DNA of 64,000 nt, taken from positions 43,233 to 107,232 of IMG/VR virus record IMGVR_UViG_3300044701_001873, one strand, 5' to 3'. Below the pieces are notes generated by a model. It worked only from the letters and a program-made list of their open reading frames with translations. It had not been told where the DNA came from and did no database searches. This stretch comes from a virus. A program made the translations under genes and the position numbers. The stretch's first letter is position 1; each line of letters begins with the position of its first letter. Positions 31,359 to 43,839 of this stretch are shown here, piece by piece.

Positions 31359-34300
31359 TTAAATTTTATAAAGTGCTGATGCTAGAATTTGACGGACAGA
31401 AAGCGCGGAAACTTCTTTATTATTTAACCCACCAGAAATAGGTGAAATACCCCTACCACCACCAGATTGTCCTGGTGCAGATTGTGCCTGCATAGGTGGC
31501 AACATAACTATACTTTGTTTCCCACTCTGATCATAAGATGGTTTTTGCTTGAGTTGATCAATATTTGCCATCTCCTTTTTATAGAATTCTTTTGATGGAT
31601 CTCCATAGATTGTTCCCGAAGTTAAATCAGATTCAGAGAACTGTAATCCTCCATTATTCGATCCATCTGCATTTGGTTGAGATCCTTGAGCAATATCTGA
31701 AGGAGGAGGTCCACTTCCAACAGGTATTGATCCTCCAAAAAATTCATTTAGAAGTGCTCTAACTTTTCTTGACCCAGCATAATCTTTATCACCAACAGGA
31801 CCACTTCCACCCCATTGATATCCTGGAATATCAAATGCTAAACCGGAATAATGATAAGAATTTATTGCGTGGCCACCAACACTACCAAATCCTTTAAATT
31901 CAGTGACATCTACACCTTTTGATTTAAAGAATTTATAAGCATCTATTGCAGTCTGACGATCATTAAAGGCAACGTGATCGTGATAATTGCCAGGTGTTCC
32001 GTGTCCTGCCCTATCATATGCTTTTCCTGCAATGTTAGGACTATTAGGATCTCCAGTTAAGTATTCTACGATTTTACCTCTAGTTCCAGATCCACCACCC
32101 TTAGCAGGATCTCCATAGATTGTTCCTGAAGTCAGAGCACTATCAGAGAAAGATAATTGATTTGAACTCGAAGTTCCTGGGGAAGTTGAACCAGGTGCTG
32201 CATCGTGGTTGGATGAAGTTCCTGAACTTTCTGGAACAGAACCATCGGATTTAATAGTTCCACCAAAAGGAGCTTCTTTGTTATATCTTGATAGTGGATT
32301 AAATCTTGAAAGAACTGAACTCTTTGGTCTTCCAGTATCTTGTGGATTTGTTGCTGCTTCCCAATGTAAGTGAGGTCCTGAAGATTTTCCAGTGCTTCCA
32401 AGTTCTCCAAGAACAGTTCCTTTCTTTACCTTTTGACCCGCTCTTACAAAAGGAGGCTTGTTCATATGCCCATAGAGATGCCCAATACCATTGCTATCAA
32501 TCCAACTTACCCAATTTCCATAACCAGCAGAAGGTGATGGTGGAGAGGTTGCTTCAACAGTTCCATCAGTAAATGCTTGCAAAGGTTCTCCAGTGGATCC
32601 CGCAATGTCAACTCCCATATGCATACCGGGAGATAGAGCAAAATTTCTCATCCCCATTGATGAAGTTACTACGTGATTTCCACCCATAGCAAAAGATGGA
32701 ACAATATGCTGATGATTAAAACCATATCCACCTCCCATAGAAGATTTAATCTTACTACGAAGTTCATTTCCTCCAGACCAATCAGGTTTTCCTTTTTCCG
32801 TTTGAAGGAAATCCCACCTCATTTGTTTATCACCAGATCCAGGTCCATAACCATCTATCTTTGCAATCTCAGCGTGAGTCATAATATTTTTGGAATTAAC
32901 ATCAGATGCTTTCCAACCCCAAGATTTAGCAATTTTAGCAGCTTCAGCAGTCATTGCTGAAATTTGATTTGCTTTAGGAGGAACACTCCAAGGATCAGTT
33001 TTTCCACCCATAGCAGCAACTGCTAGTCCTACAGAATTTGCATTTCTACGCCAAGTATGCTCTCCTGCCTGATTATATGGGCGAATTTGTTGTTTCTTTC
33101 CACTACCATCAAAAACAGCATTATATCCAAATCCACTAGGATTATCATTATATCCGCCAGCAGTCCAATGTAAGAATATTTTTTTGTCTTTTTGAGCTAC
33201 GTTAGGTTCATTTTTTCCTCCTCCACCACCTCCAGAAGAAGATGATGCAGATGCATTGAAATTGGGGACTAATGCTATTTTATTACCAGAATAATTAAAG
33301 TCCCATCCAAAATAATTGTCACCACTCTTTCTTTGGATTTGACCTCTTCTAGCAGATTTAGCGTATCCAGTAAAATCAGTTCTTCCTTGAACAAATTCTT
33401 TTGAATTTTTTTGAAGGTTTGCATCTAGAATAGCTTTAGCAGCTTGAGAAACGTGGAATTCTGAAGTTCCTGTCGCAGCAGCTGCGCTAGCTAAATCTTT
33501 TATATTAAACCATTCTGGATTAGGATTACCTCTTCCTTTAGTTGCACCACCTGGATATCTCCAAGTTGGTTCATACTGCCAGGTTCTGGTAATTAAATCT
33601 TTTATAGTTTTTCCACCATAAGCACCGGATGCAAGTCTATTATAAATTGACTGCGCAACGTCTGCCTGTCCTTGTGGATCACCATCCTCTCTAGAAACTA
33701 CTGCTGCCAGTGTCCAAAAATCAGCATCTCCTCCCTGTATATTAACTCCTCCACCATCAGTTGCTGGTTGCTGTCCACCCTCACCTGCTTTACCTGCCTG
33801 GTCTTTTGATTTTTCGATTGATGGGAACAATCCTTCTCTTGATTTTACTTCATAAAATATTCTTTTCTTTGCCCACTCAGTTAAATTCTTAGATAAAGGT
33901 CCAATAATTCTTTTGTTTAAACCAGGAACTGAAAACTCATCATCTTCTAATGCTTTACCAATAGTAAATCCAAGGTCTTGAGCAGCAGCATCAGTCTGTG
34001 TCTTTTGAACTTGTGCTCCCATTCCAATATCAATACCCATCTTCAATAACTGACCAATAAATGGAGTTCCTGCAAAAGTTGATGAGAGAGATTTAAATCT
34101 GTTTAAACTTTTCTCATCCTTAAGAATATCTTCCTTTGCCTTACTTTCAACATCGGCAGAAACTTTAGTTGTTGCTACTGCAGGTTTTGCTTGTATATTG
34201 GTAGTCCTACTTGGCATAGATCTAGAACCACCACCAACTCTACCTGCAGCATAACGACGTTCAACGGGAATTGGGTTTGCCTTATCAACTGGACCAGTTC

Positions 34301-35606
34301 TTCCTGACAAATTTTTATAAATTTCTTTTGCCCCCCAATCACCAATAGCACCACCAATACCAGCACCAACAAGAGCACCAAGACCAGGAATTGGAATAAC
34401 ACCTTGTCCTATTAATCCACCAATTGCTGAACCTAAACTAGCACCGGCAGCACCTATAATAGCACGATCCAATGGCTCTCCCATTGCCATATCAATACCA
34501 ATGCCAATCAAAGCCCCAATAACTGGAACTCTTTTAAACATTTTAGAAAATGCTCTAAATCGTTTTAAAAATCTAGCACTAGTTCCTATAGCAGTACCTG
34601 CTTTTGCTGCTGCTTTTCCTGCAAATTTAACAGCACCTTTAGCAGTTGATTTTATACCTTGCTCTAATGCTTCTCCACCAATTCTCTTTACTAAATTTGT
34701 AAGAGGGCCCTTAATTAAATTAAAAACAAGAGTTCCTGCTTTCTTAAATAAGTTCTTAGCGACTCCTCCTGCTTTTAATAAAAGTTTTCCTATCAATCTT
34801 GCAGGGGGACCAATGATCATCCCTGTCAGTTTAGCAAGAAACTTAATTTGTTTCGGGAATAAAGTTGTGAGAGCAATTATTCCTAATCTTAATTGCTGTA
34901 AAGGATTTTCAAGACCTTTAGCAATTTCCCCAAACATTTTAATAATCTGAGGAACATAATTAAATAAGAAATTTGCAAGACTTCCTAATAAAACATTACT
35001 AATATAATTCCAAATCATATCAAAGAAACTTAGTTTCTTTTTAGGACCCTCTAATATCTTACCTTTTTTCTCAGGACCTTTTTTCTCTAATTCTGCCTCT
35101 CTCTTAGATGCCTTTTCTTTACTTCTAAGAATTCTTTGACTTCTTTGATTTCTTAAAGTATTTGCTAAATTAGATCCAAAAACTCCTTTAATTTTAATCA
35201 AAGTTTCTTTGATTGCAATTAATTCCTTGATTAGATCTCCACCATCAAAGGGTTTTTGTTCTTCTTTTTGTTGCTTTTCTTCTACCCCAGTTTCTTTATC
35301 GACGGGTTTAACAAGAGCAGAAGTTGGACGACGAACAATTGCAGATGACTTACGACGAACTAATGCTCCAGTGCCACTACCCTTACTTCCTTTTGGTATT
35401 AATTTATCTGGAGATATTTTCTTATTAGCTTTGGTAGTTTTTTTCTTAATAAATGAGGTCGCTTTTTTCTTTGCCCCATCAACAATACCTTTCTTTACAG
35501 TCTCTTTAATTCCTCCAACAATTGCTCCTCTTGCTGCCCCTGTAGCAGCACCTCTTGCTGCTCCTGCTGCTAACATTCTTCCTGCGCCAAGTAATAAAGG
35601 AAGCAT
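31359..35606 (-). CDS. Tail protein with four cell-wall-hydrolase-like domains (1,415 aa)
   Basis: The N-terminus (1-35) is Ala/Gly-rich. A hydrophobic helix pair (VLLGSLANFLF, about 203-213) and glycine zippers (GASLGSAIGGLIGQG) follow. Domains: (1) about 625-790, SleB-like, with DPQGQADVAQSIYNRL; (2) about 807-950, N-acetylmuramoyl-L-alanine amidase-like, with LHWTAGG, GEHTWRRN and MTHAEI; (3) about 990-1085, M23 metallopeptidase-like, with HMGVDIAG, HLYGHM and GPHLHWE; (4) about 1200-1285, M15-like, with the exact SxHxxGxAxD pattern (SYHYSGLAFD). LTSGTIYGDP occurs at about 1160 and 1330. It probably locally degrades peptidoglycan during injection and may act as tape measure or internal hub. 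It lies between the hub genes and a paralogue. Confidence 0.75.
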   Translation of the reverse strand: MLPLLLGAGRMLAAGAARGAATGAARGAIVGGIKETVKKGIVDGAKKKATSFIKKKTTKANKKISPDKLIPKGSKGSGTGALVRRKSSAIVRRPTSALVKPVDKETGVEEKQQKEEQKPFDGGDLIKELIAIKETLIKIKGVFGSNLANTLRNQRSQRILRSKEKASKREAELEKKGPEKKGKILEGPKKKLSFFDMIWNYISNVLLGSLANFLFNYVPQIIKMFGEIAKGLENPLQQLRLGIIALTTLFPKQIKFLAKLTGMIIGPPARLIGKLLLKAGGVAKNLFKKAGTLVFNLIKGPLTNLVKRIGGEALEQGIKSTAKGAVKFAGKAAAKAGTAIGTSARFLKRFRAFSKMFKRVPVIGALIGIGIDMAMGEPLDRAIIGAAGASLGSAIGGLIGQGVIPIPGLGALVGAGIGGAIGDWGAKEIYKNLSGRTGPVDKANPIPVERRYAAGRVGGGSRSMPSRTTNIQAKPAVATTKVSADVESKAKEDILKDEKSLNRFKSLSSTFAGTPFIGQLLKMGIDIGMGAQVQKTQTDAAAQDLGFTIGKALEDDEFSVPGLNKRIIGPLSKNLTEWAKKRIFYEVKSREGLFPSIEKSKDQAGKAGEGGQQPATDGGGVNIQGGDADFWTLAAVVSREDGDPQGQADVAQSIYNRLASGAYGGKTIKDLITRTWQYEPTWRYPGGATKGRGNPNPEWFNIKDLASAAAATGTSEFHVSQAAKAILDANLQKNSKEFVQGRTDFTGYAKSARRGQIQRKSGDNYFGWDFNYSGNKIALVPNFNASASSSSGGGGGGKNEPNVAQKDKKIFLHWTAGGYNDNPSGFGYNAVFDGSGKKQQIRPYNQAGEHTWRRNANSVGLAVAAMGGKTDPWSVPPKANQISAMTAEAAKIAKSWGWKASDVNSKNIMTHAEIAKIDGYGPGSGDKQMRWDFLQTEKGKPDWSGGNELRSKIKSSMGGGYGFNHQHIVPSFAMGGNHVVTSSMGMRNFALSPGMHMGVDIAGSTGEPLQAFTDGTVEATSPPSPSAGYGNWVSWIDSNGIGHLYGHMNKPPFVRAGQKVKKGTVLGELGSTGKSSGPHLHWEAATNPQDTGRPKSSVLSRFNPLSRYNKEAPFGGTIKSDGSVPESSGTSSNHDAAPGSTSPGTSSSNQLSFSDSALTSGTIYGDPAKGGGSGTRGKIVEYLTGDPNSPNIAGKAYDRAGHGTPGNYHDHVAFNDRQTAIDAYKFFKSKGVDVTEFKGFGSVGGHAINSYHYSGLAFDIPGYQWGGSGPVGDKDYAGSRKVRALLNEFFGGSIPVGSGPPPSDIAQGSQPNADGSNNGGLQFSESDLTSGTIYGDPSKEFYKKEMANIDQLKQKPSYDQSGKQSIVMLPPMQAQSAPGQSGGGRGISPISGGLNNKEVSALSVRQILASALYKI

Positions 35607-35618
35607 CTATCTATCCCC

Positions 35619-38411
35619 CTACATTCCCCAGATGTTATAAAGAGCTGCGGTTGTAATTATAGCAGCCTCACTACTGTCATAAGAATTAAAATAAACAACA
35701 GGTGTTGATCCAGTTTTTGTCATTCCTGATTGTGGGTTTCCTCCTTTCCCAACAGATGGTAGTGGCAACATAGATACACTTGGTTGACTTTCGGGAACAC
35801 CTGGTATATTAGGTGGTTTCCCAGGTGCTATAGAAGGAGAAGTTGTAGGTGAAGAAACAGCAGATGATGCTCCACCTTTCTTTGCTAAAATAGATGCTAT
35901 TAATACTTTCTTTTCTAATACTTCCCCAGTAAGACCTTGTGCTTTACCCTCTTCTCTAGCTCTTGTAGCAGCTTCAAAAACTGCTGGATTAGATGCTCCA
36001 ACTTTTGATGGATCTAACATTTTACTCAATTGATCCACCGACATTTTATTAAGTTGGTCTTCAGATAATGATGAAGATGATGGTGGTGAAGAAGGAATTA
36101 ATGGTGTTGATGGTTGAGATTGAGTTGATTTCTTAGGTTCTCCAGTTTCACTTTGAGGATTTCTAGATCCAGGTCCAGTAGGAATTAATGGAGTAGATGG
36201 ACTTGCATAAGAGTCTTTTGCAGGGTCCCCATAGATTGTTCCTGAGGTTAAAGCGGCATCATCAAATTTTAATGTTTTATCGTCTTTAGGAGCATCTGCT
36301 GCCGGAGAGTCTGCAGATGCAGGTCCCGATAGATTATCAGTTTCAACACCTTGATATCTTAAAGACTCAGGAGCTTTGGATTGTGGTGATCCAGGCAACC
36401 AAGACCCTTTAGATCCTTTAGATTTAGATATTGCAAATTCAGCAGCAGCAACTGATGCCATCTGCTTAGCCTTTTCATCAGATACTCCTAATTTATCCTT
36501 CCAATCATTATAATGTGTTTGATATGCTTGATTATACCAATATTGAATATCCGCATCTTTATCATATTTCAATTCGAGTTTAAACATTTTTGCAGTGCCA
36601 ACTACAGTTCTAAAATAATCAGCAACGTTTGCAGATTTTAAAATAGATTGTCCTTCTGGACTTGATGGAAGAACTCCGGTCAATTCGTCGCTTTTTCCAA
36701 CTAACTTTCCCAATCCAGCAGAAGACACTAGTTTATTGACCATTTTAATAGTATATTTTCCACTACTTGCACTATCTCTAACATATCCAAGAACATATGA
36801 TTTTGGAGGATTTTTACCAACTGTAATATAACGAGTTGATATTACATTCTTACTATATTCTGTCGGGCTAAAAATTCTATCACCAATCTTAAATCCATTT
36901 GAAGAACCTCCAGAACTACTAGCACCACTAGATCCTCTAGCACCATTGGAACCACTGGAACCACTAGATCCTCTAGCACCATTGGAACCACTAGATCCAC
37001 CAATCTGACCTCCAGTCGACTTCGCTTCAATTTTAATATCTCCAAGATTAGCAACTTTTCTTTCAGTTGTTCCACCAAACATCTTATTGATATTATCAAG
37101 ATATACTGGACCTCCTAACCAATCAGCAGCACCTTTCTTTAATACATATTCTCCAGTTGAAAGAGCAGTTAGATGTTTATCGGGACCTAGACCAGAAACA
37201 TTGAATGAAGTAGTTTTAGAAGATACATTTCCACCCTCTCTTGAAACTGTATCATTAAAAGATAATTTTTTCCTATCTGCTGCATTTCCTGGAATAGATC
37301 CACCAGTTTCTTTTTTTACTACTTTTGGAGGTCTAACTTCTCCACCAGTAAATTTAAGATTAATTGGTGGACCTGCAGTTGGTTTAGGTTCTGGGTTCTT
37401 TGGTTCACCAGTAATATTGGGTGCTTGAAGTTCTGGAGCTTGTGGAATGTTAGGAATATTCGCAGACCCTATTTGAGGGGAACCCGGAAGCATTTTTAAT
37501 GCACCATTCAAAAGACCAATAAAACCATTCAATGCAGAATTAATTGCATCAATAAAATTTCTCACCGGTTGAACAACCATCTTATCAATAAATTGTATAA
37601 CTGTATTAAAGAAACCAGTTATACCATCAATCAAACCCTGTATAGGTTTGAGTAATGTCATTGGATTTTGTAAGACAGTAAATAACCAATTAACCAAAGA
37701 CCCAAGAAGAACCATCATTATAAAATTCTTAATCGTATCAAAGATACTCGTAAAGGGTTTAAGAATTTTATTGATTAGTCCTAAACCCTTTTTCTCTTCC
37801 TTCTTGCCTTCTAAATCTTTCTCCTTACCTTCCTTTCCAGTCTTCTCTCTTTCTCTTCTTGATAATTCCGATCCCTTTTTATCAGCAGAAGACTGTTTTT
37901 GTAATATAGAAAGGATACTCTCGGTCAATCCTCTAATTTCTTTTACAATATCAAGTAGAGATCCATTTAAAAACTTTTCTATTTCCCCAATCTTTTTTGA
38001 ATTATTATCTACCTGTTTTTCTTGTTCTTGTTCAGGTTCTGGTGGTTGGTAATTTGCTAAAGCACCTCCAGATCCTGATAATAACTTTGCAGGATCTGTG
38101 ACGGGTTTTTGATTTGTCCCTTGACCTTGAGGTTTCTTATTAAAAAAAGAGTCTACATTTATTCCTTTTTTTGCTGCAGTAAATTTAGATCCTTTAAGAT
38201 CTCTTATTCTCTTTCTTTCGTTAGCAAGTTTTGCTAGATCATCTTCAGATAACTTTGACTTTTCATCGAAGGAACTTTTAACAATTGTTTCTCTCAACAA
38301 TTGCATATACTCATCATATTCTAAGTCAAAGTTATCCTCCAACCCAAGAATTTTGGCAACTTCTGGATCTACTTCTTCTATTTGTTTTTTAGTAGGATCC
38401 TCGACTGCCAT
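35619..38411 (-). CDS. Tape-measure/hub-like protein, paralogue of the 1,415-residue protein
   Basis: 930 residues. A charged N-terminal helix region (ELSRREREKTGKEGKEKDLE) leads into MMVLLGSLVNWLFTVLQ (226-245), which aligns with VLLGSLANFLF in the next gene. A Gly/Ser-rich hinge with a duplicated SGSNGARGSSG block lies at about 475-500. LKFDDAALTSGTIYGDPAKD (about 717-736) repeats the sequence found twice in the neighbour. No hydrolase motifs seen. It follows the gp26/short-ORF frameshift pair, the position held by the tape-measure gene in many tailed phages, so a tape-measure-type role is inferred. Confidence 0.65.
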   Translation of the reverse strand: MAVEDPTKKQIEEVDPEVAKILGLEDNFDLEYDEYMQLLRETIVKSSFDEKSKLSEDDLAKLANERKRIRDLKGSKFTAAKKGINVDSFFNKKPQGQGTNQKPVTDPAKLLSGSGGALANYQPPEPEQEQEKQVDNNSKKIGEIEKFLNGSLLDIVKEIRGLTESILSILQKQSSADKKGSELSRREREKTGKEGKEKDLEGKKEEKKGLGLINKILKPFTSIFDTIKNFIMMVLLGSLVNWLFTVLQNPMTLLKPIQGLIDGITGFFNTVIQFIDKMVVQPVRNFIDAINSALNGFIGLLNGALKMLPGSPQIGSANIPNIPQAPELQAPNITGEPKNPEPKPTAGPPINLKFTGGEVRPPKVVKKETGGSIPGNAADRKKLSFNDTVSREGGNVSSKTTSFNVSGLGPDKHLTALSTGEYVLKKGAADWLGGPVYLDNINKMFGGTTERKVANLGDIKIEAKSTGGQIGGSSGSNGARGSSGSSGSNGARGSSGASSSGGSSNGFKIGDRIFSPTEYSKNVISTRYITVGKNPPKSYVLGYVRDSASSGKYTIKMVNKLVSSAGLGKLVGKSDELTGVLPSSPEGQSILKSANVADYFRTVVGTAKMFKLELKYDKDADIQYWYNQAYQTHYNDWKDKLGVSDEKAKQMASVAAAEFAISKSKGSKGSWLPGSPQSKAPESLRYQGVETDNLSGPASADSPAADAPKDDKTLKFDDAALTSGTIYGDPAKDSYASPSTPLIPTGPGSRNPQSETGEPKKSTQSQPSTPLIPSSPPSSSSLSEDQLNKMSVDQLSKMLDPSKVGASNPAVFEAATRAREEGKAQGLTGEVLEKKVLIASILAKKGGASSAVSSPTTSPSIAPGKPPNIPGVPESQPSVSMLPLPSVGKGGNPQSGMTKTGSTPVVYFNSYDSSEAAIITTAALYNIWGM

Positions 38412-38585
38412 TTACTGTTTTTGCTGTTGTTTTTGTCTTTCTTCTTCTAAGTGCTGCTCTAGAAGCATAACATAAACATCACGTTCCCAAGGCATCAAGT
38501 TTTCAATTTCGGTCAATGAGTATTTATGATACTGCATCAAAGCAAAATTTAATTTATAATAATTCTCAAGGTCCATATGGACCAT
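38412..38585 (-). CDS. Short gp51-like ORF, probably translated as a -1 frameshift extension of gp26
   Basis: 57 codons from ATG at 38585. It contains LENYYKLNFALMQYHKYSL and MPWERDVYVMLLEQHLEEE, a helix pair of the kind found in tail-assembly chaperones; the PWE-x-x-VY-x-x-LL motif is typical of phage TAC C-terminal parts. The -1 frame of the upstream gp26 enters this ORF with no intervening stop after a T TTT TTC heptamer, and the ORF can also start 2 bp after the gp26 stop. In cyanophages this small gene is placed after gp26 and is called gp51-like. A fusion of about 298 residues is predicted alongside gp26. Confidence 0.72.
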   Translation of the reverse strand: MVHMDLENYYKLNFALMQYHKYSLTEIENLMPWERDVYVMLLEQHLEEERQKQQQKQ

Positions 38586-38587
38586 TG

Positions 38588-39307
38588 CTACGCGAAAAAA
38601 CTCGATAGCCCCTCAAGAACAACAGTGCTTTCAACATTTGTATTTGGATTTGTAATCTTAACTTCGTGGGAAAGTTTAGGCATAGTCTCAAAGAACTTTT
38701 CAATTTGTTTAAATTGTGATGAGTTCATTTGATCTAAGAAATCGACAAGTTCTTTCTTAGTCACATCTGATGAAGACCAAACTTCTTCTGCGTTATAAAT
38801 CTTAGCAATACAAGAAACAATCAAATCAAAAGATTGATCCATATTGTTTCCAGAAGAAAAATCAAAATTACTCTTAATGAACTGATCTAATGATGGATAC
38901 TTCATTTCCATCATCAAATTATCATCAATCTTAATTTGATTAGTATGCTCTTCATTCTTTTTAACCTGAATATCATCAACAGCAATCTTAGTTAATACTG
39001 TTGTTTCACTATCATCTGGGCAAATCAAATTAACTTCTATTTCTTCGCCAACTGATTTTCCACGAATGTTAAGGAACAAATATTCAATATCAAATGTAGG
39101 AAGAATTTCAACTTTAATTCCTTTTGATTGAATGCAATTTTTAATAACTGTTTTAATTGCATTCGTAATATCTTTAGTGTTTTCACTCTCAAGGGCAAGA
39201 ACAAGAAGTTTTTCTTCTCTTACTAAGAACGGTCTATATCTAATTGATTCTCCAGTTGATGGCAATTCCAACTCATAAGTCGGAGTAGAAATCTTTGGTA
39301 AAGGCAT
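38588..39307 (-). CDS. gp26-like baseplate hub assembly protein
   Basis: 239 residues with the T4 gp26-type baseplate layout: N-terminal LPSTGESIRYRPFLVREEKLL, then LALESENTKDITNAIKTVI, a beta region (VEILPTFDIEYLFLNIRGKS), and a C-terminal helix ending EGLSSFFA. gp26 acts in assembly of the baseplate hub. The last codons contain a T TTT TTC slippery heptamer, so a fraction of ribosomes may continue into the next ORF. A late promoter lies 26 bp upstream of the ATG. Confidence 0.8.
   Translation of the reverse strand: MPLPKISTPTYELELPSTGESIRYRPFLVREEKLLVLALESENTKDITNAIKTVIKNCIQSKGIKVEILPTFDIEYLFLNIRGKSVGEEIEVNLICPDDSETTVLTKIAVDDIQVKKNEEHTNQIKIDDNLMMEMKYPSLDQFIKSNFDFSSGNNMDQSFDLIVSCIAKIYNAEEVWSSSDVTKKELVDFLDQMNSSQFKQIEKFFETMPKLSHEVKITNPNTNVESTVVLEGLSSFFA
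38594..38600 (-). promoter_or_regulatory. Programmed -1 ribosomal frameshift heptamer (T TTT TTC)
   Basis: On the minus strand the gp26 codons read AGT TTT TTC GCG TAG. T TTT TTC matches the X XXY YYZ slippery consensus, and slipping back one base puts ribosomes in CGC GTA GCA ATG, in frame with the 57-codon ORF, with no stop between. The zero-frame stop follows one codon later, as in lambda G/GT. Confidence 0.72.
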
Positions 39308-39332: not shown

Positions 39333-39339
39333 TATTTAT
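39333..39339 (-). promoter_or_regulatory. T4-type late promoter ATAAATA
   Basis: ATAAATA on the minus strand, 26 bp before the gp26 start and overlapping the last base of the gp54-like gene. It would drive gp26 and the tape-measure/hub operon. Confidence 0.7.
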
Positions 39340-40241
39340 TACGCAAATCCAGAGGTTCCAGGAGTTCCAAAATCACCAACTGGTGGGTTAGAAGCATTTG
39401 GTGCAAAAGAGTTATAAGAAAATGTATTTGGTAAATTTCTTAAACTGTCATTAAAATATTGAGTTCCGTCCAATGCTGTTGCTGCAGTATATAACTCAGG
39501 AACTCCTGGAGTAAATGGATATGAAGGACTTAAAGCATTTCCATTTATTGTAGCTTGATCTGCAGGATCTCCTATGATGGGAGGTTTTCTAGTTGCATTT
39601 TGATAAGAAGGACTAAATCTATTAGTCATTACATATCTAACATAAGAGAAAGAAACCGTAATTTTTAATAAATCACTTGCATCATAAGATATTGGAGTAG
39701 AAACAATATTGATCGGAAATGCTTGTATAAATTGATATTGAAGTGTGGGTCTGGGAGAATTTTTACTTACATCTTTTTCAAATTTAATAAGGTGAATGTC
39801 ACTCTTGTATCTTTTTGGGTATTGCATCCTGTAAAAAGTTGCAGGATTTTTATACTGCTCTGAGTCAAAGTATTCCCCTTCACCAACAATAAAATTCATC
39901 CATCCCTGAAAATATTTAATAACTGCATATTCGTGATCAACATAAAAAGTTAAATCAATAGTGTCATCGTAAATTCTACGATACACCATTTTTTCAGTTG
40001 ATCCGTGATAGTCATTATTGACTTCGTGCGTTGCCAAACTAGATCCAGGAAGACTTGCTTCACAGCAAGCAAGATTAATCATTTCCTTATGTTTTGCTTC
40101 ACTGACTCCCCTACTAGAAACAAAAGAATTTACTTCTTGGTTTGTTAATACCTCTACCATATAAACAGAAGTCTGCGCCGGACGCATCAATTTCTGTTTA
40201 ATTTCCGAAACCTTATAATGCTTTGCTACAGCTCCTGCCAT
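39339..40241 (-). CDS. gp54-like baseplate tail-tube initiator
   Basis: 300 residues. The C-terminal third has FPINIVSTPISYDASDLLKI and VSFSYVRYVM, matching the tail-tube protein fold (gp19/gp54 family). The central region has YRRIYDDTIDLTFYVD. T4 gp54 (320 aa) caps the baseplate and starts tube polymerisation together with gp48, which is encoded divergently next door. The Pro/Gly-rich C-terminus (FGTPGTSGFA) is probably flexible. Confidence 0.65.
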   Translation of the reverse strand: MAGAVAKHYKVSEIKQKLMRPAQTSVYMVEVLTNQEVNSFVSSRGVSEAKHKEMINLACCEASLPGSSLATHEVNNDYHGSTEKMVYRRIYDDTIDLTFYVDHEYAVIKYFQGWMNFIVGEGEYFDSEQYKNPATFYRMQYPKRYKSDIHLIKFEKDVSKNSPRPTLQYQFIQAFPINIVSTPISYDASDLLKITVSFSYVRYVMTNRFSPSYQNATRKPPIIGDPADQATINGNALSPSYPFTPGVPELYTAATALDGTQYFNDSLRNLPNTFSYNSFAPNASNPPVGDFGTPGTSGFA

Positions 40242-42861: not shown

Positions 42862-43839
42862 TCACTCTTCAGCAAGACGCTTGAAGTAACTCATTGCATC
42901 GTCTTCATCTTCATCATCGGAAGCAGAAGAGGACAGTCGATTGAGTTCTTCTTTGACACTCTGAGGAACTGGGGGAGCAGATTTACTCTTCCGATAAGAC
43001 TCTTCAAGTTCTTCCATCACATTCTCTTCAGAAGAACGCTTAGGCATATAAGACTCGTATTCTTCTTCCACATCAGCAGAAGCAGACTTAGGAGCAACTT
43101 TACCTACGCCAAGAACATAGTTCAGGCGCTTCTCAAGTTCTTCGTAGGTCTTGAATTGATCTGGGGCAATCAAAGCAGAGAGAGAATACTCTTTCTTCCA
43201 GATTGCTTCCATTGCATCGTCATCATCAAGAAGAGGTCCAGAAGAATCAAACTCAGATTTATCGTAGTTCCAATAACCTTCAACCTTACGGATCTTAAGG
43301 CGGAAGTTTGCTCCACCCCAAAAATCAAAGGGATTAATAGGAGTCTCATCTTCAAATTCTGGTTGCATTGCATTCAGAATTTTATCAAAGATTTTCTTAC
43401 CGAACTTAAACAGGAAGACCTTACCTTCGTTCTCAGGGTTGGTAGGATCCTTTACAACATAAATGTTGCTGTAATAAGACAACTTACGCTTTTGCTTACG
43501 AACAGTTTCTTTATCTTTATCGTTACCACTATTCCAAAGACCGCGATTGTATTCGGTTACAGGATCTTTTTGACCAAGAGTAGTCAGAGAGTTCTCAATA
43601 TACCAACCACCAGAACCTTGGAAACCGTGAGCAAACATTTTTACCCAAGGAATATCTTCTCCATCTGGAGCAGGAAGAAAACGAATAACAGCAGAACCTA
43701 CGTTATCCTTACCCATCGTAGGTTTCCAGAAACGGGTATCTTCTCCTGAAGATGTAGAACCCATTTTTTCAACTTCTTTCACCAGTTTATCGGTGAGAGA
43801 ACCAAGTTTAGATTGCTTTTTAAGATTTGCGAAAGACAT
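42862..43839 (-). CDS. 32: gp32 single-stranded DNA-binding protein
   Basis: 325 residues. It has an N-terminal basic cooperativity domain (NLKKQSKLGSLTDKLVKEVEK), the core OB-fold region (GSAVIRFLPAPDGEDIPWVKM, HGFQGSGGWYIENSL, VEGYWNYDKS) and an acidic C-terminal tail (SASDDEDEDDAMSYFKRLAEE) that recruits replication partners. No cysteine is present, so the zinc ribbon of T4 gp32 (His-Cys3) is absent although the surrounding fold is kept. It coats ssDNA in replication, recombination and repair. Its own sigma70-type promoter lies at 43905-43933. Confidence 0.92.
   Translation of the reverse strand: MSFANLKKQSKLGSLTDKLVKEVEKMGSTSSGEDTRFWKPTMGKDNVGSAVIRFLPAPDGEDIPWVKMFAHGFQGSGGWYIENSLTTLGQKDPVTEYNRGLWNSGNDKDKETVRKQKRKLSYYSNIYVVKDPTNPENEGKVFLFKFGKKIFDKILNAMQPEFEDETPINPFDFWGGANFRLKIRKVEGYWNYDKSEFDSSGPLLDDDDAMEAIWKKEYSLSALIAPDQFKTYEELEKRLNYVLGVGKVAPKSASADVEEEYESYMPKRSSEENVMEELEESYRKSKSAPPVPQSVKEELNRLSSSASDDEDEDDAMSYFKRLAEE

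Follow-up and report, generated by a model that had tools for sequence, protein, structure and literature searches.

Gene 26 and 'gp51' of T4-like marine cyanophages are probably one gene, read into two tail assembly chaperones by −1 frameshifting

Results

Layout of the gene 26 locus

The window analyzed here is a stretch of 64,000 nucleotides (positions 43,233 to 107,232) of the IMG/VR virus record IMGVR_UViG_3300044701_001873, and the genes and signals of interest all lie on its minus strand (Table 1). A clearly matched tail-tube-like gene precedes gp26, which is matched by Pfam PF12322 (T4_baseplate, E=5.4e-76) and by PHROG 150 ('baseplate hub', E=2.4e-79). The 3' end of gp26 reads GAA GGG CTA TCG AGT TTT TTC GCG TAG, and direct reading of this sequence bears out, in coordinates and frame, the first-pass annotation, which had noted that the terminal AGT TTT TTC GCG TAG contains an in-frame T TTT TTC. 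After a one-base backward slip on this heptamer the reading continues as CGC GTA GCA ATG GTC CAT ATG GAC and is open to the TAA, confirming that a −1 slip leads without a stop into the 57-codon ORF and joins gp26 and the −1 extension into a fusion of 298 aa. The extension itself matches PHROG 634 ('baseplate hub assembly catalyst', E=4.1e-29). The window has 58 ORFs of 100 codons or more, and gp26 is the only one of them to carry an A/T-type slippery heptamer in its final five codons.

Table 1. Features of the gene 26 locus, with positions as numbered in the window.
Feature	Position	Strand	Remarks
Tape-measure-like protein, 930 aa	35619..38411	−	PHROG matches to tape measures weak (best E=1.8e-4); placed as in lambda and HK97
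−1 frame stop codon TAA	38412-38414	−	
gp51-like ORF as conventionally called	38412..38585	−	57 aa from ATG
−1 frame extension, 60 codons + stop	38412..38594	−	Includes the gp51-like ORF; would supply the C-terminal part of a long chaperone (TAC-NC)
Hairpin GGUCC-AUAU-GGACC	38570..38583	−	Begins 10 nt past the heptamer; possible stimulator
gp26 stop codon TAG, zero frame	38588..38590	−	One codon past the heptamer
gp26 ORF, 239 aa	38588..39307	−	Product of the zero frame; proposed as the short chaperone (TAC-N)
Slippery heptamer T TTT TTC	38594..38600	−	In 0-frame register; read directly from the sequence
SD-like element GAAGGG	38609..38614	−	Ends 8 nt before the heptamer
Tail-tube-like (gp54-type) protein	39339..40241	−	Directly upstream of gp26; Pfam PF23849 E=1e-17, PHROG 45 tail tube E=1.1e-32

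The locus had also been described as lying immediately before a tape-measure-like gene. The adjacency stands, since the ATG of the downstream 930-aa ORF abuts the −1 frame stop TAA (38409-38414, minus strand), while the profile matches of this ORF to tape measure families are weak, making it a candidate tape measure gene. The abutment suggests translational coupling between the −1 frame and this gene. Two features are common to the 930-aa protein and the 1415-aa protein encoded next to it (31359-35606, minus strand), namely the hydrophobic segment LLGSLxNxLF (E=1e-6) and LTSGTIYGDPxK, a repeated motif of the C-terminal part. The two proteins may therefore be partial paralogues. The 1415-aa protein additionally has three matches to cell-wall-degrading domains, a strong one to Peptidase_M23 and weaker ones to Amidase_2 and Hydrolase_2.

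Conservation of the slip site across relatives

In close IMG/VR relatives, TTTTTTC lies at the identical distance from the stop and is accompanied by an open −1 frame in all 80 of 80 cases. We extended the comparison to 155 non-redundant ORFs, comprising IMG/VR relatives, relatives of Methylophilales phage Melnitz-1 and named phages, a set that reaches down to approximately 22% identity. The heptamer and frame relation, whose lack of conservation in related phages the first-pass annotation had named as a refutation, are kept in 154 of these 155, with T TTT TTN at −9 or −6 relative to the gp26 stop and the −1 frame open. Phages of Sinorhizobium, Stenotrophomonas, Acidovorax, Aeromonas, Vibrio and Cronobacter are among these 154, and variants with one extra T in the T-run occur among the relatives. 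Scans of viral contigs with the gp26 proteins of VmeM-32 and BUCT-ZZ01 found no relatives, and a scan with that of ACP17 returned only its match to itself.

The sole relative without the heptamer is Vibrio phage K361 (L092, 3530-3660), in which gp26 ends in TCA CTT TTC AAG TAATG, with overlapping stop and start codons. This phage may have switched from frameshifting to re-initiation.

Homopolymers are error-prone in sequencing and the homologous T4 protein is encoded by a single ORF, observations that would fit a sequencing or assembly error in the T-run that splits one truly continuous ORF. This explanation is refuted by the recurrence of the same frame relation in 154 of 155 independent sequences, including the complete genomes of S-PM2 and P-SSM2, and the zero-frame stop is always retained across the relatives. 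We assign it a negligible probability.

Codon choice at the slip site

When the relatives are clustered at 90% identity, Phe237 is encoded by TTT in 92 of 92 representatives. The share of TTT is 66% elsewhere in gp26 and 34-89% at its remaining conserved Phe columns. The codon before Phe237 always ends in T among these representatives, and the A-site codon is TTC, TTT, TTA or TTG and never CTN, even when it codes for Leu. The fixation of Phe237 as TTT and the invariably TT-initial A-site codon indicate selection on the nucleotides at the slip site. Given the encoded amino acids, the chance of the motif averages 0.39 per lineage, and the product of these chances over 25 lineages (<60% identity) is ~1e-11 when the lineages are taken as independent, which is true only in part.

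Signals flanking the heptamer

Pairing to the anti-SD sequence 8-10 nt upstream of the heptamer is stronger than in synonymous recodings (z −5.3 over 25 lineages and −8.2 over 92 sequences), and the codon of Gly233 is GGG in 40%, against a background of 7.5%. A plain count of SD motifs did not set the natural sequences apart from the recodings; duplex energy and GGG/GAG codon use alone differed. In −1 frameshifting of the dnaX and IS911 type, an SD element stimulates slippage on an A-rich heptamer. The locus described here likewise has an SD-like element ~10 nt 5' of its heptamer, with a spacing and a presumed effect that we read from sequence alone.

Folding downstream of the heptamer is also more stable than in synonymous recodings (mean z −1.48, t −5.4, 35 lineages), the excess being very strong in the P-SSM2-like group, and a hairpin follows the heptamer in many clades. 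In the clade of the window, 54 of 74 loci can form all five pairs of the hairpin, and the paired changes seen include GATCC/GGATC, AATCC/GGATT, AGTCC/GGACT and GGTTC/GAACC. Searches of Rfam and NCBIfam returned nothing relevant.

We considered the window hairpin as a universal stimulator and rejected it in this role. It is clade-specific, being absent in members that encode S-H-M-D, and is partly enforced by the V-H-M-D residues encoded at the same place.

These signals bear on whether it is the ribosome or RNA polymerase that slips. A T6 run could in principle make RNA polymerase slip, which would give mRNAs with one base more or less, some of them coding for the fusion, and the variants with one extra T could be taken in favor of such transcriptional slippage. 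Runs of six bases are, however, short for efficient transcriptional slippage, and the T TTT TTN register, the SD-like stretch and the downstream folding would be expected for ribosomal slippage only. The geometry of a tandem slip is moreover retained in the TTTTTTA and TTTTTTG variants. We therefore consider transcriptional slippage extremely improbable and favor slippage by the ribosome.

Correspondence with gp26 and gp51 of T4

Pfam PF12322 matches gp26 of the window as well as both gp26 and gp51 of T4. A profile built from the zero-frame part also matches both T4 proteins, in agreement with the result of comparing gp26, profile to profile, with the T4-type gp51 family. A profile of the cyanophage −1 extension, in contrast, matches residues 207-246 of T4 gp51 and leaves T4 gp26 unmatched. 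T4 gp51 is matched end to end by PHROG 150 and additionally by PHROG 634, the family of cyanophage gp51, and T4 gp26 ends three residues past the slip-site Phe-Phe. T4 gp26 is thus a homologue of the short product as far as the slip-site Phe-Phe, and T4 gp51 of the fusion, so that each of the two cyanophage frameshift products has its counterpart in a T4 gene. Along with the deep conservation of heptamer and frame and the codon choice, this correspondence supports the first-pass reading of a programmed −1 frameshift in a tail assembly chaperone (TAC) gene.

The two systems differ in gene arrangement. T4 has two separate, divergently oriented genes and no heptamer, whereas one gene with a heptamer is found here; the 107-kb IMG/VR record, which is perhaps incomplete, contains a single gp26-like copy and no T4-style pair of separate short and long genes. 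The heptamer is present in none of ten T4-type genes 26 (T4 and nine relatives), where TTC TTT is the commonest sequence. These genes can be viewed as a natural negative control, and the slip site appears to have been lost in the T4 clade, where it would be unneeded.

Coding start of the −1 extension

The first −1 frame residues past the slip site are conserved at the protein level with synonymous variation; for example, codon 7 is His in 76 of 78 sequences, with both CAT and CAC in use. In about a third of the 92 representatives no ATG, GTG or TTG occurs in the first ten codons of the extension. Since conserved codons precede any possible start in these sequences, re-initiation at an ATG is generally unable to supply the beginning of the extension.

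This observation weighs against the conventional view, in which gp51 is a small gene of its own that is translated when ribosomes re-initiate at the ATG two bases past the gp26 stop, with the T-run being incidental. GenBank records do annotate gp51 as its own CDS, an ATG follows just past the stop in many relatives as well as in the window, and the overlapping stop and start (TAATG) of Vibrio phage K361, which has no heptamer, would suit re-initiation. A separate gene leaves unexplained, however, both the fixed T-run and the fusion of the same C-terminal domain to a gp26-like domain in T4. We regard a separate gp51 as very unlikely, and the gp51-like 57-aa ORF is probably no independent gene.

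Structural comparison with other chaperones

The AF2 models of gp26 (pLDDT 88) and of a natural T4-type gp51 (pLDDT 81) have a similar order of secondary structure. Foldseek found no significant match of the gp26 model in the PDB. Its highest-probability matches, all non-significant, include the HK97 chaperone 2OB9 (prob 0.28-0.33, E 1-2) and YqbN 3KLU (prob 0.23), which we take to be a relative of PBSX-type prophage chaperones; these fold matches are suggestive only. The fold search of the T4-type gp51 model against the PDB returned nothing, profiles of gp26 and gp51 found nothing credible among PDB sequences, and hhalign against HK97 gp13 was negative, with no detectable sequence homology.

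Many distant members of the gp26 family, such as those from Straboviridae and Menderavirus and an Acidovorax phage, have a zinc-finger-like CPKCG near the C-terminus of gp26. Marine cyanophages have NPNT or similar at this alignment position.

Discussion

We consider it very probable that gp26 and 'gp51' constitute one gene that gives two products, the tail assembly chaperones TAC-N and TAC-NC, through −1 frameshifting. The sequence, the frame relation, the conservation, the codon selection and the domain correspondence with T4 were obtained directly. From these we infer the slippage itself, the ratio of short to long product, and the chaperone function. Most ribosomes would terminate at the TAG and release the 239-aa TAC-N, while a fraction would slip back by one base on T TTT TTC and produce the 298-aa TAC-NC, probably with help from the SD-like stretch upstream and, in many clades, from a hairpin that follows the heptamer.

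By analogy with gpG and gpGT of lambda, the short form would coat the tape measure protein, the additional C-terminal domain of the long form would recruit tail-tube subunits, and both would be absent from the finished virion. Such action on tape measure and tail tube is most likely for TAC-N and TAC-NC. T4 gp51, for its part, is required and yet not found in the particle (PMC3004832).

The locus differs from lambda G/GT and HK97 gp13/gp13-14, which use a different heptamer, and belongs to a T4-like contractile tail. The TAC of the Vandenendeviridae phage Adele likewise has a −1 slip close to the TAC-N end, on a poly-T (GTTTTT) that is conserved, and the −1 frame is open in all genomes (PMC12846349); both the phage family and the slip motif are different.

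TAC frameshifting is of a known kind, and the first-pass remark that no published description of a frameshift at this place was known is weakened by earlier work. According to PMC10885494 and PMC12846349, T4-like phages had their TAC genes identified in a previous study (Vladimirov, Gautam and Davidson, 2022; Virology 566:9-15). The second of these citing papers, on phage Adele, attributes to that study poly-T frameshift signals in the TAC-N genes of T4-like phages. Given this identification and the credited signals, the core claim has probably been published at least in part. So far as the citing papers show, the TAC-N and TAC-NC of the 2022 study are the same gene families with short and long chaperones. 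Its title puts the weight on a mechanism that is not frameshifting, which corresponds to the statement of the PRFect paper that in some T4-like phages the short and the long form come from separate genes in place of frameshifting (PMC10885494), whereas at the present locus one gene gives both. Our study adds the surveys of codon choice, of stimulators and of slip-site loss in the T4 clade.

A more tentative proposal, which we hold to be possible rather than probable, is that frameshifting was the ancestral way of making the two tail chaperones of the T4 supergroup. It would have persisted, with a two-part stimulator consisting of the SD-like stretch and a clade-specific stem, in cyanophages and in many deep Straboviridae and related lineages, while in the T4 clade duplication gave rise to genes 26 and 51 and the slip site was lost. 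For cyanophages, such frameshifting may be undescribed.

The frameshift accounts for a published puzzle. Sullivan et al. (2010; PMC3037559) reported that cyanophage gp51 lacks the first ~200 residues and is only ~20% as long as gp51 elsewhere, and it would be short because the frameshift supplies the N-terminal part; the ancestral proposal, if true, would also explain this apparent loss. Related phages would then offer a clear case of two routes to the same two proteins, through a single recoded gene in some and through a duplicated pair of genes in others. For one of the most abundant groups of marine viruses, the annotation would be corrected accordingly, with 'gp51' being the end of a frameshifted chaperone and not a separate hub-assembly catalyst.
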